A stretch of 51,558 nt of DNA, taken from contig CAMTKF010000012.1 in assembly GCA_947072905.1 (NCBI GenBank), forward strand, positions 1 to 51,558, given 5' to 3'. Source of the DNA: an uncultured Bacteroidales bacterium. Its GTDB lineage: Bacteria; Bacteroidota; Bacteroidia; Bacteroidales; Muribaculaceae. The position numbers were made by a program, and so were the translations under genes. The notes beneath the pieces were generated by a model that saw only the letters and a list, made by a program, of their open reading frames with translations, did not search any database and was not told the DNA's origin. This document shows positions 1,413-22,346 of the stretch, piece by piece (the first letter of the stretch is position 1; every line of letters starts with the position of its first letter).

Positions 1413-1607
1413 ATAATCTGTCGGCTAAGAAACTGTTTAAATTTATTTGTCGCAGGATTTGAGAAGGATTGTCATTTGGATTTTTGATATTGATGATGGA
1501 GTTTAGTGGCTCCTAAATGACTGAATCCATATCTAAAATACATTGACAAAACTCTCAAAGACAAGATAAAATAAATTTTAAACAGTTTCTAAGAGGTCGG
1601 CAGATTA
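1413..1607. repeat. nested palindromic intergenic element A (about 195 bp)
   Basis: The outer arms at 1413-1448 and about 1572-1607 are imperfect inverted repeats; the best-matching part is AGAAACTGTTTAAATTTAT against its complement. Middle arms lie at 1466-1477 and 1515-1528 (GGATTGTCATTT against AAATGACTGAATCC). The apex carries GGAG followed by TTTAG, loop TGGCTC, CTAAA (1498-1517). An alternative GGAG/CTCC pairing is possible. The element fills most of the 309-bp gap between the permease and the DUF4954 gene and lies upstream of the latter's promoter box. It shares its layout and apical motif with elements at 11491 and 22142. Confidence 0.75.
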
Positions 1608-1659
1608 TTTTTTATGACTGTAATTGGTCATGATGGTTTCGCAAAACAATTTTTTGTTG

Positions 1660-1667
1660 TAACTTTG
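1660..1667 (+). promoter_or_regulatory. Bacteroidetes -7 promoter box for DUF4954-tilS
   Basis: TAACTTTG matches the Bacteroidetes -7 consensus TAnnTTTG. It lies 34 bp upstream of the ATG at 1702, giving a short leader of about 25-30 nt. Confidence 0.75.
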
Positions 1668-1701
1668 CACCTGCAAGATTCAGTAAAATAATTTAAGAAA
1701 T

Positions 1702-3693
1702 ATGTCTAATCAAAACTATCGACGACTTACAGCAGAAGAAATCAAGATTCTAGAATCGCGTGAATGCGTCTGCGCCGACTGGTCGGGCGTAATGGTTGCC
1801 CCCGGCTTCAAGTGTTCATCCATTGATCATGTGGAGTTTTCGGGTGAGGTGCGTATAGGTGTGCTTGACGGCACTTTCCAGCGCCCCGGCGGCTTGCAGC
1901 GCCGCTCGCATGTATCGCATGTGACACTTCACAACGTTACCATAGGCAACGGTGTATACATCCGTCACGTAGCCAACTACATAGCCAATTATGACATTGC
2001 CGACGGCGCATATATAGAGAATGTAGACTGCCTGGTGTGCAGCCTTGATTCCACATTCGGCATAGGTACGGAAGTGTCGGTGCTCAATGAAACCGGCGGT
2101 CGCGAGGTGCCCGTCTACGAGCGTCTTTCAGCCCAGACAGCCTATCTCATAGCTCTGTATCGCCACGAGCGCGAGACAGTTGCAAAGCTCATAGAAATGA
2201 TAAGAGCCCACGCCGCCGGCTTCCGTGGCCGTCGCGCAAGTGTAGGCAGATATGCCGAAATCACTAACTGCGGTACTATCAACGATGTGAATATCGGAGA
2301 TTATTCGCGTATAAAAGGTGCTACCCGCCTTAAAGACGGCACTACGGTATCGTCTGAGTCCGACCCCGTGTTCATAGGCCGGGATGTCATAGCCGAAGGC
2401 TTTGTATTGGCCTCGGGCAGCCGTGTTGACGACGGAGCTGTAGTGCGCCATTGCTTTGTTGGTCAGGCTACCAACCTGTCGCACCTGTTCTCGGCTCACG
2501 ACTCGCTGTTCTTTGCCAACTGTAACTGCGAGAATGGCGAGGCTGCCGCGATATTCGGCGGTCCCTATACCGTAACTATGCACAAGTCGAGCTTGCTCAT
2601 CGCCGGTATTTTCTCGTTCCTCAACGCCGGTTCCGGCTCAAACCAGAGCAACCACATGTACAAGCTCGGCCCCATACATCAGGGTGTTGTGGAACGCGGC
2701 TCAAAGACCACGAGCGATTCTTACATACTGTGGCCGGCACGTATAGGTGCATTCTCGCTGGTGATGGGCCGACATGTCAATCACCCCGACACCTCGCGTC
2801 TGCCCTTCTCATATCTTATAGAAAATCATTCTGGCTCGTACCTGGTGCCGGGTGTCAACCTGCGCAGTGTGGGTACCATACGCGATGCCCAGAAGTGGCC
2901 CCGTCGCGACAAACGCAAGGACAACGACAAGCTCGATTGCATTAACTTCAATCTGCTCAGCCCATATACAGTAGGAAAAATGGTGAGCGGACGTCAGTTG
3001 CTCAACGACCTCGAACGCACAGCCGGCGCCACTGCCGAACGTTTTGCCTTCCAGGCCATGACCATCGAGGCCCGTGCCTTGCGCAAAGGTCGCCGTTATT
3101 ACAGCATGGCCATTGACAAATTCATGGGAAATTCGGTTATACACAGGCTTGGCAACACCAAGATCACCTCAGATTCGCAGATATTGCAGGCATTGTCGCC
3201 TGTGCATCCTGCCGGACGTGGAGAGTGGGTTGACGTATGCGGTATGTTTGCCCCCAAGTCAGAAATCGACCGTCTGTGCCGTGAAGTGGCCGACGGCACT
3301 CTCGACACACTCGAAGCTGTAGAGGCTCGCTGGCACAAGCTGCACCAGGATTACTATGACATGGAATGGACCTGGGTGTACGACTATCTGCCCGAATGGT
3401 TCGGCAAACCCATCGAAGAGCTGACCATACAGGACCTGCGGGCTATAGTGACACGCTGGCACGACAGTGTGAAGCTGCTCGACAATATGCTGTATGACGA
3501 TGCACGCAAGGAATATTCACTGCAATCGCGCACCGGATTCGGCATTGACGATCCTGAAAGTTCGGCTCAGGGCGACTTCGTGAATGTGCGCGGCGCATTT
3601 GAGGATGACCCCTTTGTAAAGATGGTTCTTGACCACATTAATGTCAAGGGTGAGCTTGCAACCAAGACCCTCGACAATTTAGGCGGCAAATAA
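1702..3693 (+). CDS. DUF4954 family protein, left-handed beta-helix-like
   Basis: This 663-residue cytosolic protein resembles the Bacteroidetes DUF4954 family. Residues of about 30-330 show short repeating strands rich in Val, Ile, Gly and Asn (for example VTIGNGVYIRH and VNIGDYSRIKG). These suggest a left-handed parallel beta-helix of the kind found in acyl- and nucleotidyl-transferases that act on sugars. The C-terminal third is more helical and charged. No signal peptide is visible. A promoter box precedes it and tilS begins 1 bp after its stop codon, so the two are co-transcribed. No biochemical function is known to me for the family; a sugar-nucleotide-related role is only a fold-based guess. 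Confidence 0.85.
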   Translation: MSNQNYRRLTAEEIKILESRECVCADWSGVMVAPGFKCSSIDHVEFSGEVRIGVLDGTFQRPGGLQRRSHVSHVTLHNVTIGNGVYIRHVANYIANYDIADGAYIENVDCLVCSLDSTFGIGTEVSVLNETGGREVPVYERLSAQTAYLIALYRHERETVAKLIEMIRAHAAGFRGRRASVGRYAEITNCGTINDVNIGDYSRIKGATRLKDGTTVSSESDPVFIGRDVIAEGFVLASGSRVDDGAVVRHCFVGQATNLSHLFSAHDSLFFANCNCENGEAAAIFGGPYTVTMHKSSLLIAGIFSFLNAGSGSNQSNHMYKLGPIHQGVVERGSKTTSDSYILWPARIGAFSLVMGRHVNHPDTSRLPFSYLIENHSGSYLVPGVNLRSVGTIRDAQKWPRRDKRKDNDKLDCINFNLLSPYTVGKMVSGRQLLNDLERTAGATAERFAFQAMTIEARALRKGRRYYSMAIDKFMGNSVIHRLGNTKITSDSQILQALSPVHPAGRGEWVDVCGMFAPKSEIDRLCREVADGTLDTLEAVEARWHKLHQDYYDMEWTWVYDYLPEWFGKPIEELTIQDLRAIVTRWHDSVKLLDNMLYDDARKEYSLQSRTGFGIDDPESSAQGDFVNVRGAFEDDPFVKMVLDHINVKGELATKTLDNLGGK

Positions 3694-3694
3694 T

Positions 3695-5026
3695 ATGAAG
3701 TTTTTAACCAAGGTAAAACAAAGCATTGACAGGCACAGCCTGCTGCGAGCGCAGGGTAAGGTGATTGTAGCTGTCAGCGGCGGCGCCGATTCGGTGGCTC
3801 TGCTGGCTGCCCTTACCGACCTTGGTTATGACTGTGTGGCCGCACATTGCAACTTCCATCTGCGCGGTGCCGAATCTATGCGCGACATGCGGCATGTGGA
3901 GGACATCACCGCTCAGATAGGGGTTGATCTGTATATTAAGGATTTTGACGTGGATGCCCGGCGCAAACAAACCGGCGAGTCGCTTGAAATGGCCTGTCGC
4001 GAATTGCGCTACGACTGGTTTATGGAGCTGCTCGACCGCGATTTCGCGCAGGCCATAGCCGTGGGACATCATAAGGAAGACCAGGCCGAGACTTTTTTTC
4101 TGAACCTGATGCGCGGCTCGGGTGTGGCCGGACTGTCGGGAATGCGCTTCCGCAATGGTCCGGTGGTGCGTCCGCTGCTCGATACCTCGCGTGCTGAGAT
4201 TGAAGAGTATCTGCGCGAGAAAGGCCTTGACTGGATTGTGGATTCAAGCAACGCCTCCGATGATTTCGCCCGTAACCGATTGCGCAACCATCTGCTGCCC
4301 ATGCTCGAGGAATTGTTTCCGGGAGCCGTCGATTCCGTGTTGAAATCAATGGAGATATTGCGCGAGAACAATGACGTGTACTCCTGTGCCGTGAGCAATG
4401 GTATAAATCCGTATGTGGATGAGAAGACAGACGAGGTAGACCTCTCGGCTTTGCTCGAAAAGGAAAGCTTTGCCGGTGTATATCTGTTTGAATATCTGCG
4501 CAGTGAGGGTTTCAACCGCAGCATGACCAATTCGATGCTCGAATGCTCAGGGCGAAGCGGAGGAACGTTCACAAGTCCCTCGGGCACAATACGCGATGTA
4601 GACCACGGCATACTGCGTGCCCCGCGCGCCAAGCGGACTGTAGGCCTTGATGTCACCGAGGTAAACATTTCGCGCGATATTTTCGAGCCGCTGCGCATTG
4701 AAGTCAGCCACCATGACGTGAGCGAATTCCGTCCCGAACGCGATGCCGGCGTAGCCTATATTGATGAAAAAGTGCTCGGCGAGAAGCATCGCTGGGCCGT
4801 GAGACACTGGCGGCGCGGCGACCGTATGATTCCATACGGCATGAAGGACAGCAAACTGCTTAGCGACATTTTTGCAGACGCGCGTCTGAGCACTGCGTCC
4901 AAGCACGCTATATGGCTGCTTACATGCGATGACGAGATTGTATGGGTGGTAGGATTGCGTGCATCAGCCCTTTTCACCATCGGCCCCGGCACCAAGCGTT
5001 TCATCAAACTTAAGTATTTGGGATAA
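3695..5026 (+). CDS. tilS: tRNA(Ile)-lysidine synthase
   Basis: TilS attaches lysine to C34 of the CAU-anticodon tRNA-Ile in an ATP-dependent reaction, changing its codon from AUG to AUA. The N-terminal PP-loop ATP-pyrophosphatase motif SGGADS is at residues 28-33. The family motifs VGHHKEDQAET and RNRLRNHLLP follow, and a C-terminal substrate-binding domain ends at residue 443. This is the full length for the bifunctional-domain form. The ATG lies 1 bp after the DUF4954 stop, so expression depends on the upstream promoter. The protein is essential in most bacteria. Confidence 0.96.
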   Translation: MKFLTKVKQSIDRHSLLRAQGKVIVAVSGGADSVALLAALTDLGYDCVAAHCNFHLRGAESMRDMRHVEDITAQIGVDLYIKDFDVDARRKQTGESLEMACRELRYDWFMELLDRDFAQAIAVGHHKEDQAETFFLNLMRGSGVAGLSGMRFRNGPVVRPLLDTSRAEIEEYLREKGLDWIVDSSNASDDFARNRLRNHLLPMLEELFPGAVDSVLKSMEILRENNDVYSCAVSNGINPYVDEKTDEVDLSALLEKESFAGVYLFEYLRSEGFNRSMTNSMLECSGRSGGTFTSPSGTIRDVDHGILRAPRAKRTVGLDVTEVNISRDIFEPLRIEVSHHDVSEFRPERDAGVAYIDEKVLGEKHRWAVRHWRRGDRMIPYGMKDSKLLSDIFADARLSTASKHAIWLLTCDDEIVWVVGLRASALFTIGPGTKRFIKLKYLG

Positions 5027-5065
5027 TTTGGCATGTAAAACGCAGAAAATGAATAATTTTTTGTT

Positions 5066-5073
5066 TAACTTTG
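5066..5073 (+). promoter_or_regulatory. -7 promoter box for the glycoside hydrolase operon
   Basis: TAACTTTG lies 26 bp upstream of the ATG at 5100, in the short gap after tilS. It gives the secreted glycosidase and the small protein behind it a promoter separate from tilS. Confidence 0.75.
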
Positions 5074-5099
5074 TGCGTTGAATCAAATGCTTACTTATC

Positions 5100-7391
5100 A
5101 TGAAAAATTTCAAACGTATTGGGCTGTTGATGGTAGCGGCATCAGTCGGAGCCGCAGTCAACGCCGCCAATCCTATTGTGGCCACAGATGCCTACAGCTG
5201 GCACGGCGACACAATAAGCCAGGGCGAATACATGGCTTTTTCGCCTGATGGTACAGAGCTGATATCAACTTATTCAGCACAACCCGGCTATTTTATGCCG
5301 ATTAACAAACATTGGAAACTGTCCAAGGACATTTCGCCATATCCACAGCTCATCACCCCCAACAAGCTTCATACTGCCATCTACAATCTCGGCCTTGAAG
5401 AAATGATAAATGCCGTGGAGCCGGATACCACACTGCGCACAGGCAAGGAGTGGGCCGGAGTATGGACCCGCGACGTATCGTACTCGATTCTGTTGTCGAT
5501 GGCCTATCTGCAGCCCGAGGCTTCAATGATTTCGCTGATGCGCAAGGTAACGCCTACAGGCCGCATAATTCAGGATACCGGCAGCGGCGGCGCATGGCCT
5601 ATAAGCTCCGACCGCATGATCTGGGCTCTTGCGGCTTACGAGGTGTATAAGGTCACAGGCGACAAGGAGTGGCTCGAATACATATATCCAATCATTGCCA
5701 ACTCTATGAGCGATGATGAGAAGATTACAGCATCGGCCGACGGACTTGTCAAAGGCGAGACGTCATTCATCGACTGGCGCGAGCAGAGCTATCCAAAGTG
5801 GATGCAGACCGCCGACATCTATAATTCTGAAGCGCTCGGTACCTCTATAGTTCACGCACAGACATACCGTGTGCTGTCGGAAATAGCTTCGGAACTCGGC
5901 AAGAAAAAAGAGGCAAGTATGTATGAAGTCAAGGCTGATGCAATTGCCGAAGCCGTAAACAACCGCCTGTGGCTCGATGACAAGGGCTACTACGCCATGT
6001 ATAATTACGGGCGCAACTTCCCTGTAGTCAATCCACGTGCCGAAACCCTTGGCGAATCGCTCGCCATACTCTATGACGTGGCTCCCGAAGACCGTGCCCG
6101 CAGCATTACCGAGAACAATCCCACAACTCCCTACGGCGTTGGTATTTTTTTCCCGCAGATTGCCGATATGCCTGCCTATCACAACAATTCGCTGTGGCCT
6201 TGGGTAGCCTCATACTGGGCGCTTGCCAATGCCAAGGTGGGTAATGAACAGGGGCTGCTCGAAGCCATAGGTTCGGTGTATCGTCCGGCGGCTCTGTTCA
6301 CCACAAACAAAGAAAACTTTGTGCTCGACAACGGCGACATTGCCACAGAACTCAACTCGTCGAATATGCTGTGGTGCCTGGCCGGAAACCTTGCCATAAC
6401 CCAACGAATACTGTTCGGTATAACATTCGAAAAAGACGGGTTGGCATTCCACCCCGTAGTACCCAAGGCTCTTGGACAGACTCGCTCGCTCAATAATTTC
6501 ACCTATCGCAATGCCAAACTCAATATCACCGTAAAGGGTTATGGCAACAAGATAAAGGAATTCACACTCAACGGCAAGCCACACGAACCCTTTGTGCCCG
6601 CCAACATAAAAGGCGAGAACAACATCGTTATCACCATGGCCGACAATGACTTCACCCCCATGCAGGTGGCTCATACCGCCAACAAGAAAGCGCCGCTTAC
6701 GCCCATAGCACGTCTGTCGCACTCGCCCGAACTTGCCGCTGAAGGCGCGCCGGTCAACAACCTGCTCGAATGGCAGCCGATAGAGTATATTGGCAAATAC
6801 ATAGTGCTGCGCGACGGACAGCCGGTGGCCGAGACACGAAACACATCTTTCGAAGCCGTGGTGCCCGGCGAATATCAGGTGATAGGCGTCAGCACCGACG
6901 GCGTGCAGTCGTTCGCGTCAGAGCCGCTCAACAACTTCCCAACCACCGTACTGGAGATGCCCGGCGAATCAACGGCATTGAAGTCGGCCGAGGTGAGCTA
7001 TCAGCCCGCCGAGGGTATTAACGGCTACCACGGTCTTGGGTTTGTAGAAGTTGACCACTCTGCTGCCCCGATAAATATCAAACTGCCTGTGGCTGAAGAC
7101 GGCACTTACTCTATCTCGTTGGTTTACGCCAACGGTAACGGTCCGGTGAACACCGAGAACAAATGTGCCATACGCACACTCACCGTCGACGGCAATAAAG
7201 CCGGCACCATAGTGATGCCTCACCGCGGGGTAGGCAACTGGAGCGACTGGGGACGAACCAACAATGTGACAGTACCCCTCACGGCCGGAAATCATGAGAT
7301 AGGAATAGCATTCTTCCCCGAGGATGAAAATATGAACCTCAATACCAACCATGCGATCATCGACCGTGTGATTGTCCAAAAAATAAAGTAA
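5100..7391 (+). CDS. secreted six-hairpin-type glycoside hydrolase with C-terminal carbohydrate-binding-like domain
   Basis: The 763-residue protein starts with a Sec signal peptide (about residues 1-22, ending VNA-AN). The central part, about 90-480, has the aromatic- and acid-rich helical pattern of (alpha/alpha)6-barrel glycosidases, with WAGVWTRDVSYS, SFIDWREQSYP and NSSNMLWCLAGN as conserved-looking motifs. A fibronectin III-like segment follows (about 530-620). The last 150 residues form a beta-sandwich resembling CBM6/35 modules (NGYHGLGFVEVD to NHAIIDRVIVQ). It probably acts on glycans in the periplasm or at the surface. The GH family and substrate cannot be fixed by reading alone. 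No SusC/SusD pair is nearby, so this is not a classical utilisation locus. The next gene begins 1 bp after the stop. Confidence 0.8.
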   Translation: MKNFKRIGLLMVAASVGAAVNAANPIVATDAYSWHGDTISQGEYMAFSPDGTELISTYSAQPGYFMPINKHWKLSKDISPYPQLITPNKLHTAIYNLGLEEMINAVEPDTTLRTGKEWAGVWTRDVSYSILLSMAYLQPEASMISLMRKVTPTGRIIQDTGSGGAWPISSDRMIWALAAYEVYKVTGDKEWLEYIYPIIANSMSDDEKITASADGLVKGETSFIDWREQSYPKWMQTADIYNSEALGTSIVHAQTYRVLSEIASELGKKKEASMYEVKADAIAEAVNNRLWLDDKGYYAMYNYGRNFPVVNPRAETLGESLAILYDVAPEDRARSITENNPTTPYGVGIFFPQIADMPAYHNNSLWPWVASYWALANAKVGNEQGLLEAIGSVYRPAALFTTNKENFVLDNGDIATELNSSNMLWCLAGNLAITQRILFGITFEKDGLAFHPVVPKALGQTRSLNNFTYRNAKLNITVKGYGNKIKEFTLNGKPHEPFVPANIKGENNIVITMADNDFTPMQVAHTANKKAPLTPIARLSHSPELAAEGAPVNNLLEWQPIEYIGKYIVLRDGQPVAETRNTSFEAVVPGEYQVIGVSTDGVQSFASEPLNNFPTTVLEMPGESTALKSAEVSYQPAEGINGYHGLGFVEVDHSAAPINIKLPVAEDGTYSISLVYANGNGPVNTENKCAIRTLTVDGNKAGTIVMPHRGVGNWSDWGRTNNVTVPLTAGNHEIGIAFFPEDENMNLNTNHAIIDRVIVQKIK

Positions 7392-7392
7392 T

Positions 7393-7878
7393 ATGAACAG
7401 AATACTTGCCTCAATCGTAGCCATAGCCCTGGGGCTGTGTGCCGTAGCCCAAACTCAGTTGTCTACTACCGAAAAAGCCAATCCCAACGATGATACGTTC
7501 ATCGACATGGCCGTATCGGCCGGCAAACAGGCCAAGGCCGCCGGCGAAAAACCGTGCGGAACGGTCGTAATACTCAACGGCGCATGGAAAGCCACCGGCA
7601 CCCCCTCGGCCACTGCCACCGCCGAGGAAAACGCCATAAGCAAGAGCCGCCTGAAATCGCTGAAGGGCGCCCGTGTGTACACCGTATTTGAGCCTACAAC
7701 ACGCGCATTGGTTGCCCTTACCAAGGCCGGTGCTGATGCAGTGTACTATGCCGTTACCTCCGATGATGCGGTAGAGGCCGGTATATACAAGCAGGAAGAA
7801 TACGTTCCGAGCGACTCGGCCACTATCCCGGCTATATGGGTCGACTACATTCCGGCTCTTGACCTCATGGCCAAATAA
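7393..7878 (+). CDS. small secreted protein resembling a zinc-less cytidine/guanine deaminase fold (pseudoenzyme)
   Basis: The 161-residue protein has a signal peptide (about residues 1-19). The rest lines up with CMP/dCMP and guanine deaminases: FIDMAVSAGKQA, PCGTVVILNG, AEENAI, then YTVFEPTTRALVAL and ADAVYYAVTSDDA. In active enzymes these are HAExNAI and xCEPCPMC. Here the zinc-binding His is Thr76 and the two Cys are Thr102 and Ala105, while Glu78 and the Glu-Pro pair at 100-101 remain. The alignment is by eye. If correct, the protein cannot bind the catalytic zinc and is exported, both odd for this family. It is tightly coupled to the upstream glycosidase and followed by a terminator, so it may be an accessory or ligand-binding protein. 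Confidence 0.7.
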   Translation: MNRILASIVAIALGLCAVAQTQLSTTEKANPNDDTFIDMAVSAGKQAKAAGEKPCGTVVILNGAWKATGTPSATATAEENAISKSRLKSLKGARVYTVFEPTTRALVALTKAGADAVYYAVTSDDAVEAGIYKQEEYVPSDSATIPAIWVDYIPALDLMAK

Positions 7879-7898
7879 GCCCGGTGATTGTTAATACA

Positions 7899-7942
7899 AA
7901 AAGCCCGCAACCATGCTGATACGAAAGCAGTTGCGGGCTTTT
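7899..7942 (+). terminator. intrinsic terminator
   Basis: AAAAGCCCGCAA at 7899-7910 pairs perfectly with TTGCGGGCTTTT at 7931-7942. It ends the glycosidase operon and may also work for the tRNA gene reading the other way. Confidence 0.85.
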
Positions 7943-7946
7943 CATG

Positions 7947-8018
7947 TACCCCGAAGGAGAATCGAACTCCTATCTAAAGTTTAGGAAACTTCTATTCTAT
8001 CCGTTGAACTATCGGGGC
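7947..8018 (-). tRNA. tRNA-Arg (anticodon CCT)
   Basis: A 72-nt cloverleaf can be drawn on the minus strand. The acceptor stem is GCCCCGA against TCGGGGT with a G-U first pair and discriminator A. The anticodon loop TTCCTAA sits on stem GAAGT/ACTTT, and the T arm contains GTTCGATTC. The loop gives anticodon CCT, reading AGG. CCA is not encoded. Confidence 0.93.
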
Positions 8019-8025
8019 GATGATG

Positions 8026-8033
8026 CAAAGTTA
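8026..8033 (-). promoter_or_regulatory. -7 promoter box for tRNA-Arg
   Basis: On the minus strand this reads TAACTTTG, placed 8 bp before the first base of the mature tRNA. Confidence 0.7.
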
Positions 8034-8081
8034 CGACATTTTCCTCATTCGGCAAAATGTGTATGAGTCATATTTAGCTCT

Positions 8082-8873
8082 TCAAGCGCTTTTCTTATAT
8101 TTCTGATAGGCTGCTGCGAGCTTGCGGTGATATCCACGGGCGGCATAGCTCGGGCCATTGTATCCACGGGCAAATGCACTCCAGTTTTTTGATTTAAGGG
8201 CCGGAAGCAGACCTGCACGGGTTATGAATTCGGCGAAAAGCTCAAGCTGGTCACGCTCTGAGCGCGACATCAGACGGTAAAATTCCTGAGGCGACTTGGT
8301 GCCGCACTGGCGCCAGTTGAATCCGCCTACCTGGAACATTCCCCAGAATGTACCTTCTATCGCCGAAACAGAGTCGATGCTCATGGCCTGGTCGAGTCGG
8401 GCCTGAACGGCGGCCTGCTGCGAGCCGTATTTAGATATATTGGGGCGTGAGAATATGGCAGGATGGCTTTTGGTATACTTCGACAGGTTGATCTTGTGTC
8501 GGGCGGCCATTTTGCGGTATACACTTAAGTCGAAGTTAATCAACGGCTTGTTTGTGTCCCAGAATCCTTGGTGAGAGCGTCCGGCCTCGATATCCACAAC
8601 AGCCTTGACCGCGGCAACTTCAACACCGAGCTGCGCAGCCACTTCCTGAAAATCTTTTTCGGTAAGTGGGCCGTAGTTTACCGAGTCGGGTTCTTGAAAA
8701 CGCAGACGTACGGTATCTTCTCCGATTACAAAATACTGCCGGTCGGGATCAATGTATCTGATAGAGTCGGGCGGTGTCAGGATAAACTGAGGCTCGGCTT
8801 GCGATTTGCTTGATGTACAGGCTATGAATATGAGGAGAGGAAGAAACAGTATCCCCGTTCGGGTAAAATGCAT
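8082..8873 (-). CDS. N-acetylmuramidase-domain lipoprotein
   Basis: The 263-residue protein has a lipoprotein signal with a likely lipobox Cys19 (LIFIACTSS). From about residue 70 on it resembles the N-acetylmuramidase (DUF3380) family. The family-like features are the acidic segment VVDIEAGRSHQGFW, the YGSQQAAVQARLDQAM helix, and the GTFWGMFQVGGFNWRQCG motif. These enzymes cleave the beta-1,4 bond between MurNAc and GlcNAc in peptidoglycan. As a lipoprotein it would be anchored at the membrane facing the periplasm. Related domains are often found in phage endolysins, but here the lipobox and the housekeeping setting argue for a cellular cell-wall enzyme. It stands alone, between tRNA-Arg and pepD. 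Confidence 0.85.
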   Translation of the reverse strand: MHFTRTGILFLPLLIFIACTSSKSQAEPQFILTPPDSIRYIDPDRQYFVIGEDTVRLRFQEPDSVNYGPLTEKDFQEVAAQLGVEVAAVKAVVDIEAGRSHQGFWDTNKPLINFDLSVYRKMAARHKINLSKYTKSHPAIFSRPNISKYGSQQAAVQARLDQAMSIDSVSAIEGTFWGMFQVGGFNWRQCGTKSPQEFYRLMSRSERDQLELFAEFITRAGLLPALKSKNWSAFARGYNGPSYAARGYHRKLAAAYQKYKKSA

Positions 8874-8899
8874 ATTATGTTTTATTGGTTATAAAATAC

Positions 8900-8942
8900 T
8901 ATAAGCATAAGGACAGGCTTTTGCCATGTCCTTATGCTTATA
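8900..8942 (-). terminator. strong intrinsic terminator after pepD
   Basis: A 16-bp perfect stem (8900-8915 with 8927-8942, AT-rich with a TAAGGACA/TGTCCTTA core) lies 10 bp beyond the pepD stop codon. The loop is 11 nt. Confidence 0.8.
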
Positions 8943-8952
8943 GGGAATAATT

Positions 8953-10413: not shown

Positions 10414-10508
10414 AGTATCAATTGGTTTTATGGTCGATTGTGCTGTGAAAACGGCGCATATCAACGTATATATAACGCTTTAATGTTAAAATTGTTTATT
10501 TTCGACCC

Positions 10509-10516: not shown

Positions 10517-10560
10517 CAAAATAAATTCGATAAAATGCAAAAAAATCGGCCAAGCTTTCT

Positions 10561-11430: not shown

Positions 11431-11488
11431 ATGACAACCACAACCGGCGTCGCTTGATTGACGGCTGATGTGGTTGTCATTTTTTTTT
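11431..11488 (+). terminator. intrinsic terminator
   Basis: ATGACAACCACA (11431-11442) pairs with TGTGGTTGTCAT (11469-11480), with further pairing inside (GGCGTC/GACGGC), followed by eight T at 11481-11488. Confidence 0.88.
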
Positions 11489-11490
11489 AG

Positions 11491-11694
11491 AGTGTGTTTG
11501 AATTTAACTCGTATTAAGCTTGAGAGTCAATTACGAGAGATTTTTTCAGCGTGAAGAAGGAGCGTAGCGAGCTACGTGAATGATGAACGATGGAAAAAGC
11601 ACCGTAATTGGCCTCAAGATTAATGCGAAACATATCCTTATAATTTTCAATTCCTCAATATAATCATTTTTTGTGTGTTAAATCCAAACACACT
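11491..11694. repeat. nested palindromic intergenic element B (about 204 bp)
   Basis: The outer arms AGTGTGTTTGAATTTAAC (11491-11508) and GTTAAATCCAAACACACT (11677-11694) match at 17 of 18 positions. Middle arms lie at about 11509-11535 and 11602-11627, with a CTTGAG/CTCAAG core and ending in CAATTACG/CGTAATTG. The apex is GGAG followed by CGTAG, loop CGAG, CTACG (11559-11576). The right end, GTGTGTTAAATCCAAACACAC, can also form its own local hairpin. The element fills the gap between the OmpH-like terminator and the transporter, and ends 10 bp before that gene's ATG. Confidence 0.8.
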
Positions 11695-11704
11695 GTTAGG
11701 AACT

Positions 11705-14532: not shown

Positions 14533-14617
14533 TTAAAAAGTTAATAAATAATGTTAATTAATCGCGGCGCGACACACTCGCAGCCGCACATCTGTGGTTA
14601 AGCCACAAAATGCACTG

Positions 14618-14625
14618 CAAAGTTA
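14618..14625 (-). promoter_or_regulatory. -7 promoter box for rpsA
   Basis: The minus strand reads TAACTTTG. The leader of about 80 nt holds a small hairpin (TGTGG and CCACA around 14593-14607). Whether S1 autoregulates here cannot be seen. Confidence 0.75.
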
Positions 14626-14696
14626 CAACATTTTTGGTTGATTTGCAAGTGATTTGCGTCGGTATGACAGTTGAAATCCGCTGAATTTTAATGCAA

Positions 14697-15908
14697 TTAT
14701 TGCAACATAGGCGCTATGCGGGCCAGGGTGGAGATAAATGTGTCGACTTCTTCGGTGGTATTGTACACCGCAAACGAGGCGCGCACGGTGCCTTCTATGC
14801 CCAGCGATTCCATCAGCGGCTGGGCGCAGTGGTGGCCTGTGCGCACGGCTATGCCCATCTTGTCGAGCAGCATGCCGGTGTCGTAGTGGTGGGCATGGCC
14901 TATGAGGAATGATATCACGGCGCATTTGCCGGGTGCTGTGCCGTAGATTTTCAGGCCGGGAATTTCGAGCAGCCGCGGGGTGGCGTATTCGAGCAGCGCG
15001 TGCTCGTGGGCGGCGATGTTCTCGATGCCTGTGCGGTCCATGTACTCTACAGCCGAGGTGAATGCGGCCGCGTCAACGTAGTCGGGGGTGCCGGCCTCGA
15101 ATTTATAGGGGAGGTCGGCCCATGTGGTACCCGAGAAGCTCACATGGCCTATCATCTCGCCGCCGCCCTGATACGGAGGCATTTTCTCCAACAGTTCGCG
15201 GCGGCCGTAAAGTATGCCTATGCCGGTGGGGCCGTACATCTTGTGTGATGAGAAGGCATAGAAGTCGCATCCCAATTGCTGAACATCGACTTTGATATGA
15301 GGAACGCCCTGCGCTCCGTCAACGCAGATCACACAGCCGTGCTCGTGGGCGATTCGCGACATTTCGGCAATCGGATTCACGGTGCCGAGCACGTTTGAGG
15401 CGTGGCATACCGATACCAACTTGGTGCGCCGGGTGAACAGCGAGCGGTATACATCAAGGTCGAGCGAGCCGTCGGGAGTAATGGGCACCACCTTGATTTT
15501 TATGCGTTTGCGCTGTTGCAGCAATTGCCAGGGGACAATGTTGGAGTGGTGCTCCATTACGGTGAGTATAATCTCATCATCGTCCTGAAGCAAACGTCCG
15601 TAGCTTGAGGCCACCAGGTTGATAGCCTCGGTGGTGCCGCGGGTGAATATAATCTCGTCGGTAGACGGCGCGTTGATGAAGCGGCATGCAGTGCGTCGTC
15701 CGAGTTCCATTGCATCGGTGGCCTCCTGCGACAGGCAATGCACACCTCTGTGTACGTTGGCTTTGTGGTTGAAGTAGGCCTTTTCGATAGCCTCCACCAC
15801 ACTGCGCGGAGTCTGCGATGTGGCGGCGTTATCGAGATATATGAGCCTGCGGCCGTAAACCTCGCGCTCAAGTATTGGAAAGTCTTTGCGTATGGAGTCT
15901 ATATTCAT
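14697..15908 (-). CDS. sufS: SufS-type cysteine desulfurase
   Basis: This group II cysteine desulfurase (403 residues) removes sulfur from cysteine as a persulfide for iron-sulfur cluster assembly. The PLP-binding lysine is K223 in SSHKMYGPTG, and the catalytic cysteine is C361 in RTGHHCAQP. The DNAATSQTP motif near residue 26 is the usual N-terminal signature. It is the last gene of cvpA-sufB-sufC-sufD-sufS, beginning 6 bp after sufD ends. No SufE or SufU partner is in the window. No clear terminator is seen between its stop and the rpsA promoter. Confidence 0.95.
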   Translation of the reverse strand: MNIDSIRKDFPILEREVYGRRLIYLDNAATSQTPRSVVEAIEKAYFNHKANVHRGVHCLSQEATDAMELGRRTACRFINAPSTDEIIFTRGTTEAINLVASSYGRLLQDDDEIILTVMEHHSNIVPWQLLQQRKRIKIKVVPITPDGSLDLDVYRSLFTRRTKLVSVCHASNVLGTVNPIAEMSRIAHEHGCVICVDGAQGVPHIKVDVQQLGCDFYAFSSHKMYGPTGIGILYGRRELLEKMPPYQGGGEMIGHVSFSGTTWADLPYKFEAGTPDYVDAAAFTSAVEYMDRTGIENIAAHEHALLEYATPRLLEIPGLKIYGTAPGKCAVISFLIGHAHHYDTGMLLDKMGIAVRTGHHCAQPLMESLGIEGTVRASFAVYNTTEEVDTFISTLARIAPMLQ

Positions 15909-15914
15909 TTTTAC

Positions 15915-17255
15915 TTATTTTTCTAAGGCCGCGCAGCTTTGGCAGGTGGATTCGCTACCACGCAGGCGCTTGTCGACAAGGCAGCGCAGGCGTTCGCGCA
16001 GGGCTTCGTGTTCTATGCCTTCGAGCACATCGTTCATGAAGGCGTTTATCAGCATCATGCGTGCCTCGGCCTCGGGGATGCCGCGCGAGCGCATGTAGAA
16101 CAATGCTTTCTCGTCGAGCTGACCGGTAGCCGAGCCGTGAGCGGCCTTCACTTCATCGCAGTAGATAATGAGCTGGGGCTGGCTGTGCATGCGTGCGTTC
16201 TCCGATGCCAGCAGATTGCGGTTTGACTGATGTGCGTTGGTGTATGCGGCACCTTCTGCCACGGTAACCTTGCCTTCAAACGCTCCTTGCGATGAATCAA
16301 ACAAGGCATATTTGAACAGCTGCTCGCTGGTGCAGTGCGGGTGGTCGTGAGTCAGGAATACTGCGTTGTCTATAATCTGGGCACCTCCGCCTATCACCAT
16401 GCCGCCAAGACGGGTGGTGCACTGCTCGCCGCGGTATACTGGCAGATATTCGTTGCGGGTCATGCCGCCGTTGAGAAACAGCGATACAAGGTTGAGATTT
16501 GAACCGTGGTGCTGAGCCACAGCCGTTACCGATGCACGGCGGGTGCGCGGGGTAGACTCTTCGAGGTCGTATAATTCGAGCGATGCGTTGCGGCCGGTCT
16601 CGGCTTCGATGACCCTGCAGTTAAGATAGTCGAAGTCGTTGACGCGCGGATGGTCGCACAGCAATATGGATGCCTTGGCATCGTCTTCCACCACAATCTT
16701 TATGCGGCGGGCAGCCATCATGGGCGCAGAGGCATTGAAGATAGACAGTACCTGAACGGGCTTCTCGAGCCTTACACCTTTGGCTACACGTATAAATACG
16801 CCGTCCTGAACGAAGAGGTAGTTGAGCGCCACTACCGGATTGCTCACCGGTGCAATGCTGTCCTTGAACAGTTCGGGATAAAGGGTCGCAGCCTTGGCGA
16901 GCGACATTACCTCTACGCCGTCGGGCAAATTGTTTTCGAGGCCCGGAAGTGCCACAAAAGCATCGTTCACCATCAATACCGACATGCGGCTCACGTTGGG
17001 TATGTCGCAGGTGAAGGCTTTCTGCGCATCGGCGGGGAAATGCACGCGCGATATGTTCAGGCCATAGTCGGGCGCAAACATGTCGTTGAGCGATATCATC
17101 TCAAAGCCCTCATCGCCCTTTTCGGGCAACTTTTTCAGTTGCTTCAGAGCCTCCAGCGCGGCCTGCCGACGTGCGTTCAATGCCTCGGGGGCATTGGCGT
17201 CGATTGTAGCCTGTTGGCTTTCAAACAGCTCTATATATTGATTTAAAGCATTCAT
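15915..17255 (-). CDS. sufD: Fe-S cluster assembly protein SufD
   Basis: SufD (446 residues) partners SufB and SufC in the SufBC2D scaffold that builds iron-sulfur clusters. The C-terminal half has the beta-helix repeats of the family and the conserved closing segment HGSATGQLDEKALFYMRSRGIPEAEARMMLINAF. The N-terminal part is the less conserved helical region. It lies 12 bp after sufC and 6 bp before sufS in a tight operon. Confidence 0.94.
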   Translation of the reverse strand: MNALNQYIELFESQQATIDANAPEALNARRQAALEALKQLKKLPEKGDEGFEMISLNDMFAPDYGLNISRVHFPADAQKAFTCDIPNVSRMSVLMVNDAFVALPGLENNLPDGVEVMSLAKAATLYPELFKDSIAPVSNPVVALNYLFVQDGVFIRVAKGVRLEKPVQVLSIFNASAPMMAARRIKIVVEDDAKASILLCDHPRVNDFDYLNCRVIEAETGRNASLELYDLEESTPRTRRASVTAVAQHHGSNLNLVSLFLNGGMTRNEYLPVYRGEQCTTRLGGMVIGGGAQIIDNAVFLTHDHPHCTSEQLFKYALFDSSQGAFEGKVTVAEGAAYTNAHQSNRNLLASENARMHSQPQLIIYCDEVKAAHGSATGQLDEKALFYMRSRGIPEAEARMMLINAFMNDVLEGIEHEALRERLRCLVDKRLRGSESTCQSCAALEK

Positions 17256-17267
17256 TACGGGCTTTTG

Positions 17268-18035
17268 TTATTGGTTGTCAACCTGTTCTTTAATCCAGTC
17301 GTATCCTTTTTCTTCAAGCTCAAGGGCGAGTTCGGGGCCACCTGAGTGTACAATGCGACCTTTATAGAGGATATGGACGAAGTCGGGTTTGATGTAGTCG
17401 AGCAGGCGCTGGTAGTGGGTTATCACGATGGTGGCGTTGCGGTCGGTCTTGAGCTTGTTAACACCCGATGCCACAATGCGCAGGGCGTCAATGTCAAGGC
17501 CCGAGTCGGTTTCGTCGAGAATCGACAGACGGGGTTCGAGCACGGCCATCTGGAATATCTCATTTCTTTTTTTCTCACCGCCCGAGAAGCCTTCGTTCAC
17601 CGAGCGCGAGGCCAGTTTGTTGTCGAGTTCGACTATGGCGCGTTTTTGGCGCATCAGTTTCAGGAAGTCGCCGGCGCTCAGGGGCTGTTCGTCAAAATAC
17701 TTGCGCTTGGCATTTATGGCCGCACGCATGAAGTTGACCATTGACACCCCCGGAATTTCAACCGGATATTGGAAAGACAGGAACAGACCCTCGTGGCTGC
17801 GGTCTTCGGGTGAGAGCGAGAGCAGGTCAAGGCCGTGGAAGTCGGCCGAACCGCGGGTGACGGTATAGTGAGGATTTCCGGCCAATACGCCCGAAAGTGT
17901 ACTTTTGCCTGAGCCGTTGGGGCCCATTATGGCATGCACCTCACCGGGGCGTATGGTGAGGTTGATGCCGCGTAATATTTCTTTTCCTTCGATGCCCGCG
18001 TGGAGGTCGTCGACTTTAAGCAGTATTTCGTCCAT
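17268..18035 (-). CDS. sufC: Fe-S cluster assembly ATPase SufC
   Basis: SufC (255 residues) is the ABC-type ATPase that drives conformational change in the SufBC2D complex. The Walker A motif GPNGSGKST spans residues 38-46. The signature is FSGGEKKR, and the Walker B region ends LSILDETDSGLD, a SufC-type sequence. There is no membrane segment, as expected for a soluble ATPase. It sits between sufB and sufD. Confidence 0.96.
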   Translation of the reverse strand: MDEILLKVDDLHAGIEGKEILRGINLTIRPGEVHAIMGPNGSGKSTLSGVLAGNPHYTVTRGSADFHGLDLLSLSPEDRSHEGLFLSFQYPVEIPGVSMVNFMRAAINAKRKYFDEQPLSAGDFLKLMRQKRAIVELDNKLASRSVNEGFSGGEKKRNEIFQMAVLEPRLSILDETDSGLDIDALRIVASGVNKLKTDRNATIVITHYQRLLDYIKPDFVHILYKGRIVHSGGPELALELEEKGYDWIKEQVDNQ

Positions 18036-18059
18036 TTTTCAGGTTTGTTTTTTACGATT

Positions 18060-19550
18060 TTATCCGACTGAATTTTCAAGAGTTATCTGAAGCAGTTTCT
18101 GAGCTTCTACGGCAAACTCCATAGGCAGCTTGTTCATCACCTCCTTGGCATAGCCGTTTACAATAAGTCCTACGGCCTCTTCGGTGGGGATGCCTCGCTG
18201 GTTGCAGTAGAAAAGCTGGTCTTCAGATATTTTGGAGGTGGTGGCCTCGTGCTCTACAATAGCACTTTCATTCTTTATGTCGATGTAGGGGAATGTGTGG
18301 GCTCCACATGTAGACGACAGCAGCAGCGAGTCGCACTGTGTATAGTTGCGGGCGCCCTCGGCCTGAGGTGTCACCTTCACCAGTCCGCGGTATGCGTTCT
18401 GGCTATGGCCGGCCGAGATACCTTTCGACACTATTGTAGAGCGGGTATCGCGTCCTATGTGTATCATTTTTGTACCGGTGTCGGCCTGCTGGCGGTTGTT
18501 GGTAACGGCTACCGAGTAGAATTCGCCTACCGAGTTGTTGCCCTTGAGCACGCACGAGGGGTACTTCCAGGTGATGGCCGAGCCGGTCTCAACCTGGGTC
18601 CACGACAGCTTGGAGTAGTCGCCGCGGCACAATCCGCGCTTGGTGACGAAGTTGTACACACCGCCACGACCCTCGGCATCGCCGGCATACCAGTTTTGTA
18701 CGGTTGAATACTTTACTTCGGCCCTGTCTTCAACTATAATCTCGACAATGGCCGCGTGCAGCTGGTTCTCATCGCGCATGGGGGCTGTGCAGCCTTCGAG
18801 GTAGCTGACGTAAGCGTCGTCGTCGGCCACAATGAGTGTGCGCTCAAACTGGCCGGTGCCCGAGGCGTTGATTCTGAAGTAGGTAGACAACTCCATGGGG
18901 CAGCGGACGCCCTTGGGAATGTAAACGAATGAGCCGTCGGAGAATACGGCTGAATTGAGTGCCGCGAAGAAGTTGTCGCGGTAGCTGACCACCGAGCCGA
19001 GATATTTCTTCACGAGGTCGGGATAATCCTTTACGGCTTCAGAAATCGAGCAGAAGATTATACCGAGTTTCGCAAGTTTCTCTTTATGGGTGGTTTTGAC
19101 CGAAACAGAGTCCATGACGGCGTCAACGGCCATGCCCGACAGCTGTTTCTGTTCCTCCAGGGGTATTCCGAGCCTGTTGAACGTGTCGAGCAGCTGAGGA
19201 TCAACCTCGTCAAGGCTTTTGGGGCCATCTTTCTTGCGGGGCTCGGCATAATAGCTTATTGCCTGAAAGTCTATTTCAGGAATGTCGAGATGTGCCCAAC
19301 GGGGCATGGTCAGGGTCTGCCAGTATCTGAAAGCCTGCAGGCGGAATTCGAGCATCCACTCGGGCTCGCCCTTGCGCTGTGAAATCAGACGCACCACATC
19401 CTCATTGAGGCCCGCCTCAATGATATCTGTATCTATGTCGGAGACAAATCCGTATTTATATTCGCCTGAGGTGGCATTGCGCAGAGTCTTGTCGTTTTCC
19501 GACTCTTCGTCGCTGTTGCTGCTGCAAGGCGTTTCGTTATTCTCAATCAT
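18060..19550 (-). CDS. sufB: Fe-S cluster assembly protein SufB
   Basis: SufB (496 residues) is the main scaffold subunit of SufBC2D. Family motifs include the [18 protein letters not shown] segment, the YLEGCTAP cysteine, and the C-terminal [20 protein letters not shown] stretch. Residues 1-25 are acidic and variable. The start ATG lies 8 nt inside the preceding cvpA-like gene, an overlap suggesting coupled translation. Confidence 0.96.
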
Positions 19551-20073
19551 CGTCAGTTGTTTTAGTCTTAACGTTTTTGGAGTCTTTGTTGTTGTGGTGG
19601 TCCTGCACTAATTCAGACAGATAGCCCAGTGTGGCGGGTGCAAAGCTTACCATGGCTTCGCGCCAGGGCTTGTCGGGTTGGTGCAAGTCTTCGTCGTCGC
19701 CCGAGACGAGCAGCACGAAGTTGATTGCAAGACTCAGTACCAGCGCCCATTGCGCAATCTTGAACAAAGCTCCGGCCAGGCGGTCGATTATACCGAGGTG
19801 AACGGTGTGTATAACCTTACGTACCATGCGCACCACCAGCCATGTGAGGAAGTAAGCGCCGATAAAAGCCAATCCGTAGCCGCATACGGTGTCGAATGCG
19901 CCCGGAGCCTCGGAGCCTGAAAAAACATCAGCTATTCCCCGGCCGAACAGGCGGGCAGCTATTATGCCCGCTATTATGCCGAGAAGCTGGCCGGCCTGGC
20001 TCACGATTCCTTTGTTGAAACCGATTACACCGCCTATTACCACTATTACGAGTATGATGATGTCTATGGCCAT
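19543..20073 (-). CDS. CvpA family membrane protein
   Basis: This 176-residue inner-membrane protein has four hydrophobic segments (about residues 2-20, 25-45, 66-85 and 105-125). It carries the CvpA family pattern: an N-terminal [20 protein letters not shown] and a glycine-rich [17 protein letters not shown]. The tail is charged (Asp, Asn, Lys). CvpA proteins have been tied to colicin V production and envelope stress tolerance, but the molecular role is unclear. It leads the suf operon, sharing its promoter and overlapping sufB by 8 nt. Confidence 0.88.
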
Positions 20074-20098
20074 TTTAACTTGTATATTATTATATTTG

Positions 20099-20106
20099 CA
20101 AAATTA
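20099..20106 (-). promoter_or_regulatory. -7 promoter box for the cvpA-suf operon
   Basis: The minus strand reads TAATTTTG, 25 bp before the cvpA start. No IscR-like or Fur-like palindrome was recognised nearby. Confidence 0.7.
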
Positions 20107-20133
20107 CTAAAAATGGTTGTCATGGCAAAAAAA

Positions 20134-20172
20134 ATTAACCGGGATTCCGCTGTTGACGAAATCCCGGTTAAT
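20134..20172 (-). terminator. intrinsic terminator after pckA
   Basis: A perfect 13-bp stem (ATTAACCGGGATT at 20134-20146 with its complement at 20160-20172) lies about 22 bp beyond the pckA stop. On the minus strand the stem is followed by a T-run. Confidence 0.88.
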
Positions 20173-20194
20173 ATTATTTATGACTGATCAAGAA

Positions 20195-21841
20195 TTACTT
20201 GTCGAGGTGAGGACCTGCGGCAACGAGAGCCTTACCGGCTTCGTTGTTTTCGTATTTCTTGAAGTTCTTGATGAAGCGGGCTGCGAGGTCTTCTGCCTTT
20301 ACTGTCCATTCTTCGGGCTTGGCGTAAGTGTCGCGGGGATCGAGGATCTTGGGATCTACGCCGGGCAGTTCGGTAGGAATCTGGAAGTCGAAGATGGGGA
20401 GTTCCTTGGTGGGAGCGGTGAGGATGGCGCCGTCGAGGATAGCGTCGATGATACCACGGGTGTCGCGGATAGAGATACGCTTGCCTGTGCCGTTCCAGCC
20501 GGTGTTCACGAGGTATGCCTTGGCACCGCTCATCTGCATGCGCTTAACGAGTTCTTCAGCGTACTTGGTGGGGTGGAGTTCAAGGAATGCCTGGCCGAAG
20601 CAAGCCGAGAAGGTGGGAGTGGGTTCGGTGATACCGCGTTCTGTACCGGCGAGCTTGGCGGTGAAGCCGCTCAGGAAGTAGTACTTGGTCTGCTCGGGGG
20701 TAAGGATAGATACGGGAGGAAGAACACCGAATGCGTCAGCGCTGAGGAAGATAACGTTCTTGGCAGCGGGACCGTGGCTGATGGGCTTAACGATGTTTTC
20801 GATGAAGTCGATGGGGTAGCTTACGCGGGTGTTTTCGGTAACGCTCTTGTCGGCGAAGTCGATCTTGCCTTCAGCGTCAACAGTAACGTTTTCGAGAAGG
20901 GCGTTGCGACGGATAGCGTTGTAGATGTCGGGTTCGCTTTCCTTGTCGAGGTTGATAACCTTGGCATAGCAGCCGCCTTCGAAGTTGAACACACCGTTGT
21001 CGTCCCAGCCGTGTTCGTCGTCACCGATGAGCAGACGTTTGGGGTCGGTAGAAAGGGTGGTCTTACCTGTGCCTGAGAGACCGAAGAAGATAGCGGTGTT
21101 TTCGCCGTTCTTGTCGGTGTTGGCAGAGCAGTGCATTGAAGCGATGCCCTTGAGGGGGAGGAAGTAGTTCATCATAGAGAACATACCCTTCTTCATTTCA
21201 CCGCCGTACCATGTGTTGATGATAACCTGTTCGCGTGAGGTGATGTTGAATACAACGGCAGTTTCAGAGTTGAGGCCGAGTTCCTTGTAGTTGGTGAGTT
21301 TGGCCTTTGAAGCGTTGTAAACGATAAAGTCGGGGGTGAAGTCCTTGAGTTCTTCAGCGTTGGGGCGGATGAACATGTTCTTTACGAAGTGAGCCTGCCA
21401 AGCAACTTCCATGATGAAGCGCACAGCCATGCGGGTGTCCTTGTTGGCACCGCAGAAGCCGTCTACAACATAGAGCTTCTTGCCTGAGAGTTCTTCGATT
21501 GCGAGTTCCTTGCAAGCCTTCCAAGCTTCCTGGCTTGCGGGCTTGTTGTCGTTCTTATATTCTTCAGTTGTCCACCATACGGTATCCTTTGACTTTTCGT
21601 CGAGAACGATGAATTTGTCTTTAGGAGAACGGCCGGTGTAAACGCCGGTCATAACGTCAACTGCGCCGAGTTCGGTAACAGCACCCTTTTCATAACCTTC
21701 GAGGGTGGGGAGGGTTTCCTGTTCGAAGAGTTCTTCGTAAGTGGGGTTGTAAACCACTTCTTTGACGTCCTTGATGCCGTAGGAAGCGAGGTCGGCCTTG
21801 ATGCCTGCCAGACGCTCTTTCTTAACTTCTTCTAAATTCAT
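20195..21841 (-). CDS. pckA: ATP-dependent phosphoenolpyruvate carboxykinase
   Basis: PckA (548 residues) interconverts oxaloacetate and PEP with ATP/ADP. In Bacteroidales it often runs in the carboxylating direction, feeding the fumarate/succinate pathway. The kinase P-loop [11 protein letters not shown] is preceded by [18 protein letters not shown] and followed by the metal-binding [23 protein letters not shown]. These are diagnostic of the ATP-dependent class. A promoter box at 21956 gives a leader of roughly 110 nt. The gene is alone in its transcription unit. A 319-codon open frame on the opposite strand is a codon-bias shadow. Confidence 0.97.
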
Positions 21842-21955
21842 GATGTGTAGAAAAAATTTATGAGTAAATGATATAATTTGCTGAAATATTGAATTTCTAA
21901 ATCATTAACCTAACGTTTGTGTCAGTTAAAAGTTATCTATGTTTTAAATCAACTG

Positions 21956-21963
21956 CAAAGTTA
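21956..21963 (-). promoter_or_regulatory. -7 promoter box for pckA
   Basis: The minus strand reads TAACTTTG, about 115 bp upstream of the pckA ATG. The 505-bp gap between pckA and glnS holds this promoter, an AT-rich middle (about 21964-22110) where I see nothing definite, the glnS promoter box and palindromic element C. Confidence 0.7.
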
Positions 21964-22122
21964 TAACTTTTTTTAGTGTTTAGAAAATAAAATATGGAAA
22001 AATTTCCTTAATCTAAATCTTAAAAAATCTTTTCGGGGCTTAATTGCCCCTGCATAGGCTGTATTGTATGTTTTTTCGCTAAAAAAGTTACAAGGTGTTA
22101 AAAGCGTTCACAGAAAAATTTA

Positions 22123-22130
22123 TAACTTTG
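22123..22130 (+). promoter_or_regulatory. -7 promoter box for glnS
   Basis: TAACTTTG ends 11 bp before element C begins. A transcript from it would start around 22136-22138, so the element makes up almost the entire leader of about 210 nt. Confidence 0.7.
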
Positions 22131-22141
22131 CACTTTAAAAT

Positions 22142-22338
22142 TAAGTAACTCTTTAAAATTAGCTTAATTTCAGCTTATGCAGGATTTTTGAGTGGATTTT
22201 AAATCAGAAAGAAGGAGTTTGGCGAGCTAAACGACTGATTGAAAATTTGAAATATACCAAAAAGACACATAAGAAGATATAAGCCCGAGGGGTTACTGAT
22301 AAAATTTCAATTCTAACTAATTTTAAAAGAGTTACTTA
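22142..22338. repeat. nested palindromic element C, forming the glnS leader (about 197 bp)
   Basis: The outer arms TAAGTAACTCTTTAAAATTAG (22142-22162) and its near-complement at 22317-22338 differ by one inserted base. Middle arms are GGATTTTAAATCAG (22194-22207) and CTGATTGAAAATTT (22235-22248). The apex is GGAG followed by TTTGG, loop CGAG, CTAAA (22214-22231). The element begins about 5 nt after the predicted transcription start and ends 8 bp before the glnS ATG, so the RNA could fold into one long interrupted hairpin directly before the start codon. Confidence 0.8.
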
Positions 22339-22346
22339 TATACAAT

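Follow-up and report, generated by a model that had tools for sequence, protein, structure and literature searches.

Palindromic elements of a Muribaculaceae genome as predicted MITEs that share a conserved end hairpin with a clade of IS5-family transposons

The stretch of DNA analysed here (the window) comprises 51,558 nucleotides of contig CAMTKF010000012.1, from assembly GCA_947072905.1 of an uncultured Bacteroidales bacterium of the Muribaculaceae, a draft genome of 94 contigs and 2.69 Mb. It contains three nested palindromes, W1, W2 and W3, for which an initial annotation made from the sequence alone had proposed a length of about 200 bp, membership of a dispersed family, and selection on structure. 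Indeed, the three elements, with their nested arms, GGAG, apical stems and loops, are present at or near the positions given there. The layout stood, but the limits had to be redrawn, giving true extents of 161, 206 and 193 bp (Table 1). Similarly, the outermost palindrome assigned to W1 is likely an older terminator stem outside the element: AATCTGTCGGC (1415-1425) pairs with GTCGGCAGATT (1596-1606), followed by a T-run, and we infer that W1 inserted at a TAA in the loop of a pre-existing terminator-like stem. W3 sits between a promoter-like TAnnTTTG box and an ATG at 22347. Folded as single strands, W1, W2 and W3 gave z values of -9.2, -7.7 and -6.0 relative to shuffled sequences, and 0 of 200 shuffles equalled the element in each case.

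The palindromes share a core of 76 nt, in which a nested stem carries tandem G.A mismatches and a 6-bp apical hairpin. A pattern for this core matched 15 places in the genome of origin, as compared to 0 for a reversed control. A covariance model (R1), trained on an alignment of 28 cores (A3), returned 47 matches at E<=0.001 and 50 at E<=0.01, four of which lie in the window; the two weakest (C16:13324 and C32:2) were excluded from the subfamily, orientation, decay and spacing counts given below. The kind of model recommended in the initial annotation thus recovers further copies, and the family is larger than the three originally noticed. The spacing from terminus to core was 44 nt in 42 of 47 copies in this genome (one further copy, with too short a flank, was excluded), and the five exceptions were indel-shifted, truncated or unclear. 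Likewise, GANGGAG (at least 6 of 7 positions) was found 66 +/- 2 nt from an end in 37 of the 39 elements of at least 150 bp that were defined by their terminal inverted repeats (TIRs) alone.

Sequence features indicate that these repeated palindromes are miniature inverted-repeat transposable elements (MITEs), with relatives in a clade of IS5-family transposons. They possess TIRs, lack coding capacity and occur in multiple copies. Identical 3-bp flanks, mostly TAA or TTA, were found for 34 of 47 cleaned TIR pairs, where 19.3 were expected and 0 of 20000 shuffles reached 34; four pairs had inverted flanks and nine neither. A first count had given identical 3-mers for 32 of 52 pairs (18.9 expected; 5 inverted, 15 neither), but nine of these pairs, two among the 32, ended at an internal false end and are excluded from the recount. 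By their termini the copies fall into subfamilies A/B (GAGTGTGTTT), W1 (GAAACTGTTT; seven copies in this genome, W1 counted), C (GAGCTTGTTT; two cores as an inverted pair), D (GTAAGC) and W3 (GTAACTC). For subfamily D, TAA precedes GTAAGC and TTA follows TTAC in 12 of 14 cases, which would fit duplication of TA. One copy (L008, C31 in this genome) has the outer arms of subfamily A and the inner arms of subfamily B, a chimera that suggests exchange of ends between MITEs. The smallest derivatives seen are solo elements of about 28-47 bp (L034, L039, L051), with the family terminal sequence and TWA-like flanks.

Table 1. Elements and core hairpins in the window. R1 scores of the four cores are not independent, as these cores are among the 28 sequences that trained the model.
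Feature	Position	Strand	Details
W1, MITE	1429..1589	+	161 bp; subfamily TIR GAAACTGTTTAAATTTA; TAA flanks 1426-1428, 1590-1592
W1 core hairpin	1473..1550	+	44 nt from terminus; R1 59.5 bits, E 2e-10
Putative older terminator-like stem, split in its loop by W1	1415..1606	+	G-T pairing allowed
W2, MITE, subfamily A	11490..11695	+	206 bp; TIR GAGTGTGTTTGAATTTAA; TTA flanks 11487-11489, 11696-11698
W2 core hairpin	11534..11609	+	44 nt from terminus; R1 80.4 bits, E 1.1e-15
W3, MITE	22145..22337	+	193 bp; TIR GTAACTCTTTAAAATTA; flanks TAA 22142-22144, TTA 22338-22340
W3 core hairpin	22189..22264	+	44 nt from terminus; R1 70.8 bits, E 2.7e-13
Partial two-core-type element, subfamily C1	1..130	-	TIR GAGCTTGTTTAACAACAAATGT; truncated by contig start
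Core hairpin of the C1 element	10..86	-	44 nt from terminus; R1 63.5 bits, E 1.9e-11
Subfamily-A element, right half only, without core	50535..50603	+	ends approximate; from repeat detection

The termini of subfamily C match those of core-less insertion sequences (ISs). Searches with PF01609 (60 of 119 genomes of the family) led to 30 loci, which include three such ISs of 896-897 bp with a TIR like GAGCTTGTTTAAAAACAAATGT and TAA or TTA flanks. An IS with GAGTGTGTTT ends was not found, in that no IS-length TIR pair with at most two mismatches occurred in 40 loci around single TIRs, and the search for an IS with GTAAGC ends was limited to the genome of origin. The core itself was traced to an IS5 element (L205), where it lies between the left TIR and the transposase gene. 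This transposase scored 166.8 bits against NF033580 (transpos_IS5_3; cut-off 110) and also matched PF01609 and PF13340, and the remaining parent transposases were assigned to IS5 by similarity to it. Its relatives were detected in 59 of 297 family genomes and not in the genome of origin (0 matches at E<=1e-20 in the 94-contig draft, whose four PF01609 hits were not studied). Applied to 60 transposase loci, R1 found 25 cores, distributed over 17 of the loci, and two of these 17 represent one and the same IS. Eight of the 16 loci could be delimited by TIRs and identical 3-bp flanks, with ends at most 130 nt from a core: six ISs carry a core at both ends and two (L213 and L231) at one end, on the 5′ side of the transposase gene in both. 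All 14 cores of these eight ISs face inward, and their start is separated from the terminus by 43-44 nt. Seven of the ISs span 1.02-1.28 kb and one 704 bp, with TIRs identical at 12-14 of 14 positions and TNA as the 3-bp flanks. Where the initial annotation had suggested looking for a Y1/HUH or other transposase with matching ends, the enzymes encoded beside the core are of the IS5 family, and ISs matching MITE termini were seen for subfamily C, in the form of the core-less ISs.

When four transposases were used to scan the genome collection further, 61 loci were obtained, 22 of which had a core match, and no core was found in eight viral loci with relatives. The tree built from 40 transposases contains a clade of nine (support 100/98) that comprises six two-core ISs, two one-core ISs and one core-less IS, and outside this clade only L241 adjoins a core; these 40 were drawn from 51 proteins, identical ones being used once, and their labels reflect R1 hits in the fetched stretch, which for some is cut by a contig end (L280). 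The simplest reading of these data would be that the core entered an IS clade once and that MITEs carrying it use the ends of several IS5 types. Two-core MITEs look like both ends of an IS with the middle lost, and one-core MITEs may have kept one end. In L215, L218, L219, L221 and L226 a GTAAYTT motif was also observed after the hairpin at 10 of 10 ends, some 135 nt in from the terminus, and it is kept in the hairpin-less L245.

The stems of the core covary across the family. In A3 one register is common to all 28 cores, and 86.2% of cells are paired, as compared to 37-43% in slid controls, with a covariation score of 0.670 against 0.224 for shuffled alignments and double-sided change in 18 of 21 pairs. 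For example, column pair 22-53, which was not used in choosing the cores, shows pairing in all 28 cores and occurs as five pair types, while pair 25-50 is A-T in 15, G-C in 8, G-T in 2 and T-T in 3. G.A or A.G occupies the four inner mismatch columns in 28, 28, 26 and 26 of the 28 cores, and two more columns in 19 and 17, although the pattern used for choosing cores fixed most of GANGGA and required an apical stem of at least four pairs plus a GACTGA-like motif, which biases columns 23-34 and 41-52, including the invariant G.A columns, and leaves columns 8-22 and 53-67 unbiased. A second alignment (A5), of 27 cores beside transposases picked by R1, and so not independent of A3, was 87.1% paired against 38-44% when slid, scored 0.650 against 0.220 when shuffled, and showed double changes in 18 of 21 pairs, a number reached by 1 of 500 shuffles. 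In this set tandem G.A or A.G occupied the four columns in 25, 25, 27 and 27 of 27 cores. A5 derives from 37 entries, from which one with an N and eight near-duplicates were dropped and L287 was left unaligned; the entry list is without the right core of L254 and without L290, and two of its members, L241 and the third L249 core, could be parts of adjacent MITEs. In both alignments cells from related sequences are not independent. Among named structures, hammerhead and K-turn readings were considered and set aside; CTGATGA varies between subfamilies.

Within subfamilies the pattern of change was decidedly different. In 41 copies of subfamilies A, B, C1, C2, D and W1 from the genome of origin (2391 pair cells; three copies outside subfamilies and four shorter than 150 nt were dropped), we counted 139 one-sided changes, of which 95 break and 44 keep the pair, as compared to only seven double changes that keep pairing and four that do not. 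One-sided changes from Watson-Crick pairs produced G.T in 29 cases and A.C in 28, and the within-subfamily pattern is as expected under neutral decay. Between subfamilies, G.T cells outnumber A.C cells by 44 to 13 in A3 and by 50 to 12 in A5, and by 30 to 13 and 28 to 12, respectively, when the single mostly-G.T pair is left out. One-sided, symmetric change within subfamilies together with an excess of G.T between them suggests that copies decay after insertion, whereas a top strand able to fold is preserved in the lineages that spread; and the combination of covarying stems with this strand-specific pattern argues that a folded single strand is under selection. The proposal that paired change reflects selection on structure therefore holds between subfamilies, where on the main measures it lies well above the slid and the shuffled controls, and fails for individual copies. 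The main correction to the initial annotation is that selection is on mobile lineages and not on each locus. Both outcomes that it had named as contrary to its proposal, an ordinary MITE with target duplications and a lack of covariation, apply in part, in that target duplications do flank these MITEs and yet the family covaries. Comparisons of this kind offer a simple test by which neutral decay of copies can be told apart from selection on mobile lineages.

As judged by our searches, these MITEs and the related IS clade are found mainly in one Bacteroidales family. Ten relatives, including the genome of origin, carried 6 to 93 palindromes each, which are lower bounds, as at most 150 candidates were scored in each; these genomes had been chosen for the presence of the TIR, of the core or of a transposase related to those above. 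The TIR pattern was present in 84 of 397 family genomes. A search for the core at the level of the order, with stricter filters and at most 19 candidates scored per genome, gave matches in at least 9 of 247 genomes. In genomes from other families of the order (L142-L147, L150 and L151), weaker core matches, one or two in each, were observed inside long palindromes whose termini differ (GGTTCT..AGAACC and others), which suggests an older or wider family.

Taken together, our comparisons show the core to be a mobile, IS5-related structure of one strand, selected at the level of the element, held at a fixed place, and located at both ends in six ISs. We consider it probable that the core is a subterminal hairpin of the IS5 clade acting in cis as a folded single-strand end module, with RNA the likelier form, although for RNA taken by itself the chances appear about even. 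Under this proposal the core would be retained because it benefits the mobile element rather than the host locus, and would work as a folded single strand in which tandem G.A pairs flank the 6-bp apical hairpin. Transcripts entering from either flank would carry the folding strand, and the RNA hairpin might then reduce transcription that would otherwise run on into the transposase gene or past the far end, as in IS200. The inward orientation of cores and their 5′-side position in L213 and L231 fit a role as RNA in inbound transcripts. With such a hairpin present at both ends in an IS5 clade and retained by derivatives that lack a gene, it becomes testable whether an IS5 element uses folded RNA or single-stranded DNA (ssDNA).

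Several observations weigh against this proposal. MITEs without a transposase gene still keep the core, and having no gene to shield they weaken the idea of damped read-through in particular. An intrinsic terminator was rejected, as 13 of 14 ends lack a U-run of 5 after the hairpin, and the IS ends showed neither a clear promoter nor a clear terminator. Core-less elements with identical 3-bp flanks occur at 47, 79, 111 and 131 bp, and core-less IS5 relatives are common (for 31 of the 40 tree members no core was found beside the transposase); IS5 transposition in general thus does not require the core. Within the core clade itself L245 has apparently had both hairpins deleted. In a complete genome (G135), four loci picked for a core beside a transposase (L324-L327) each consist of a 161-bp one-core MITE abutting an 868-bp core-less IS5 element, in both relative orientations, the two sharing 13-14 of their first 14 bases; at least two further copies of that transposase (at 1837803 and 3021167) have no core nearby among the matches listed, a lower bound with at most 150 candidates scored. 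Two of the five covariation measures were also weak: the number of double-change pairs was reached by 22 of 500 shuffles in A3 and by 1 of 500 in A5, and the number of further pair types by 87 and 32 of 500, respectively.

The main alternative to RNA is that the folded form is ssDNA, in a transposition or replication step, for instance an extruded hairpin in the transposition complex whose folded non-transferred strand is bound by the transposase or a host protein. We regard this as possible but distinctly less probable. It would account readily for a core at a fixed distance from both ends and for its retention in gene-less MITEs, and tandem G.A pairs are stable in DNA too. In addition, single cores in G135 were found on the lagging strand in 20 cases and the leading strand in 8 (p 0.036; a post hoc count from a GC-skew map of 16 samples, with 5 of 33 single cores in zones not counted). 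No IS5 DDE transposase is known to use ssDNA, however, and transposases of the core clade are not obviously longer than others (253-287 codons for the open frames in L213, L218, L219 and L221, as compared to 257-267 aa in core-less L204 and L207); core-less derivatives also exist. Conserved mismatch columns, covarying helices and a non-coding location at the element end might also be expected of a trans-acting non-coding RNA, such as a cofactor of the transposase or of target choice, in the spirit of the IS110 bridge RNA. We think this improbable, because the target is just TWA, no variable guide-like loop was seen, and no promoter was found. A bolder extension of the proposal, which we hold to be rather unlikely, is that an IS5-family DDE system uses the folded strand, RNA or ssDNA, from both ends and recognises it through the tandem-G.A helix, in which case the module would be portable between TIR types and MITEs could switch transposases while keeping it.

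Two further alternatives are disfavoured. Long hairpins are known templates for template switching, which at quasipalindromes could restore pairing without selection, and hence without function. In one copy (L006, C24 in the genome of origin) the right inner arm complements the left arm better than the right arms of related copies do, likely such a quasipalindrome correction. Template switching would act on single copies, yet it is there that changes are overwhelmingly one-sided, and it would neither keep the G.A mismatches of the A5 cores nor favour G.T over A.C; as a general explanation it is therefore quite improbable. Membership of the REP/RAYT type, with movement by the Y1/HUH enzyme suggested in the initial annotation, is the least credible of these readings. 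A GGAG before a hairpin recalls REP tags, and Y1_Tnp genes are present in 9 of 9 genomes searched, with two in the genome of origin (the neighbourhood of these genes was not inspected). The elements are flanked by direct 3-bp repeats, though, and the core lies in transposons that encode DDE enzymes of the IS5 family.

The parent ISs resemble the IS5 family (NF033580) in having a DDE transposase above the curated cut-off, matching TIRs and 3-bp TNA flanks, and differ from other IS5 ISs in their structured ends, with an inward core hairpin and the GTAAYTT motif. Porphyromonas gingivalis belongs to the same order of bacteria. Its BrickBuilt, MITE293 and MITE700 elements are likewise non-coding, with TIRs that match IS5-family ISs and predicted stem-loops, although the BrickBuilt stems derive from tandem direct repeats (PMC4596501), unlike the single, covarying core at a fixed place that was traced here to IS ends. 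Precedents for folded RNA near an IS end are the IS200 stem-loops, which stop impinging transcripts (PMC3196728), and the leader structure of ISPpu9 (PMC8450116). In these other kinds of IS, folded RNA controls incoming transcription or transposase translation, a role that for the core is our proposal; the core differs in lying at both ends and also in gene-less MITEs. REP/REPIN elements and their RAYTs share with our elements short tagged palindromes and inverted pairs, and depend on a Y1 transposase (PMC3733652), whereas our elements have 3-bp target duplications, IS5 relatives and a long nested stem. Palindromic candidate structured RNAs from Bacteroidetes, similar in size and phylum, have also been reported (PMC8040213), and these could include the present element. 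A known Rfam RNA was rejected, as the window gave only two tRNAs and no other match over a gathering threshold; ten loci searched at E<=5 gave two tRNAs and two sub-threshold matches, one of which, to MIR403 (L063, 732-944; 23.7 bits against a threshold of 70), overlaps a MITE. No description of such hairpin ends in IS5 elements was found in titles, abstracts and passages of the open-licence literature, and a conserved folded end appears to be new for an otherwise ordinary IS5-type transposon. Folded ends have been associated with HUH elements and not with DDE ISs, which recognise duplex TIRs.

With respect to host genes no orientation bias was detected for 48 of the 50 copies in the genome of origin under a simple open reading frame (ORF) rule: tandem contexts were antisense in 14 and sense in 10, nine copies were divergent, five convergent, and 10 had no flanking gene call. 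A host cis-regulatory RNA was rejected for lack of a consistent orientation to neighbouring genes. The orientation of cores toward one another is strongly biased in G135, where 30 of 35 neighbouring core pairs are inward, one outward and four in the same direction, and 28 of the 30 inward pairs are spaced 105-108 bp. Near the right end of the window, a 45-nt inverted repeat (50587-50717; 80% complementary, 41-nt spacer) adjoins the truncated MITE end upstream of an ORF at 50699, and four overlapping 138-nt direct repeats in 69-nt steps occupy 50870-51214, within the last ORF.

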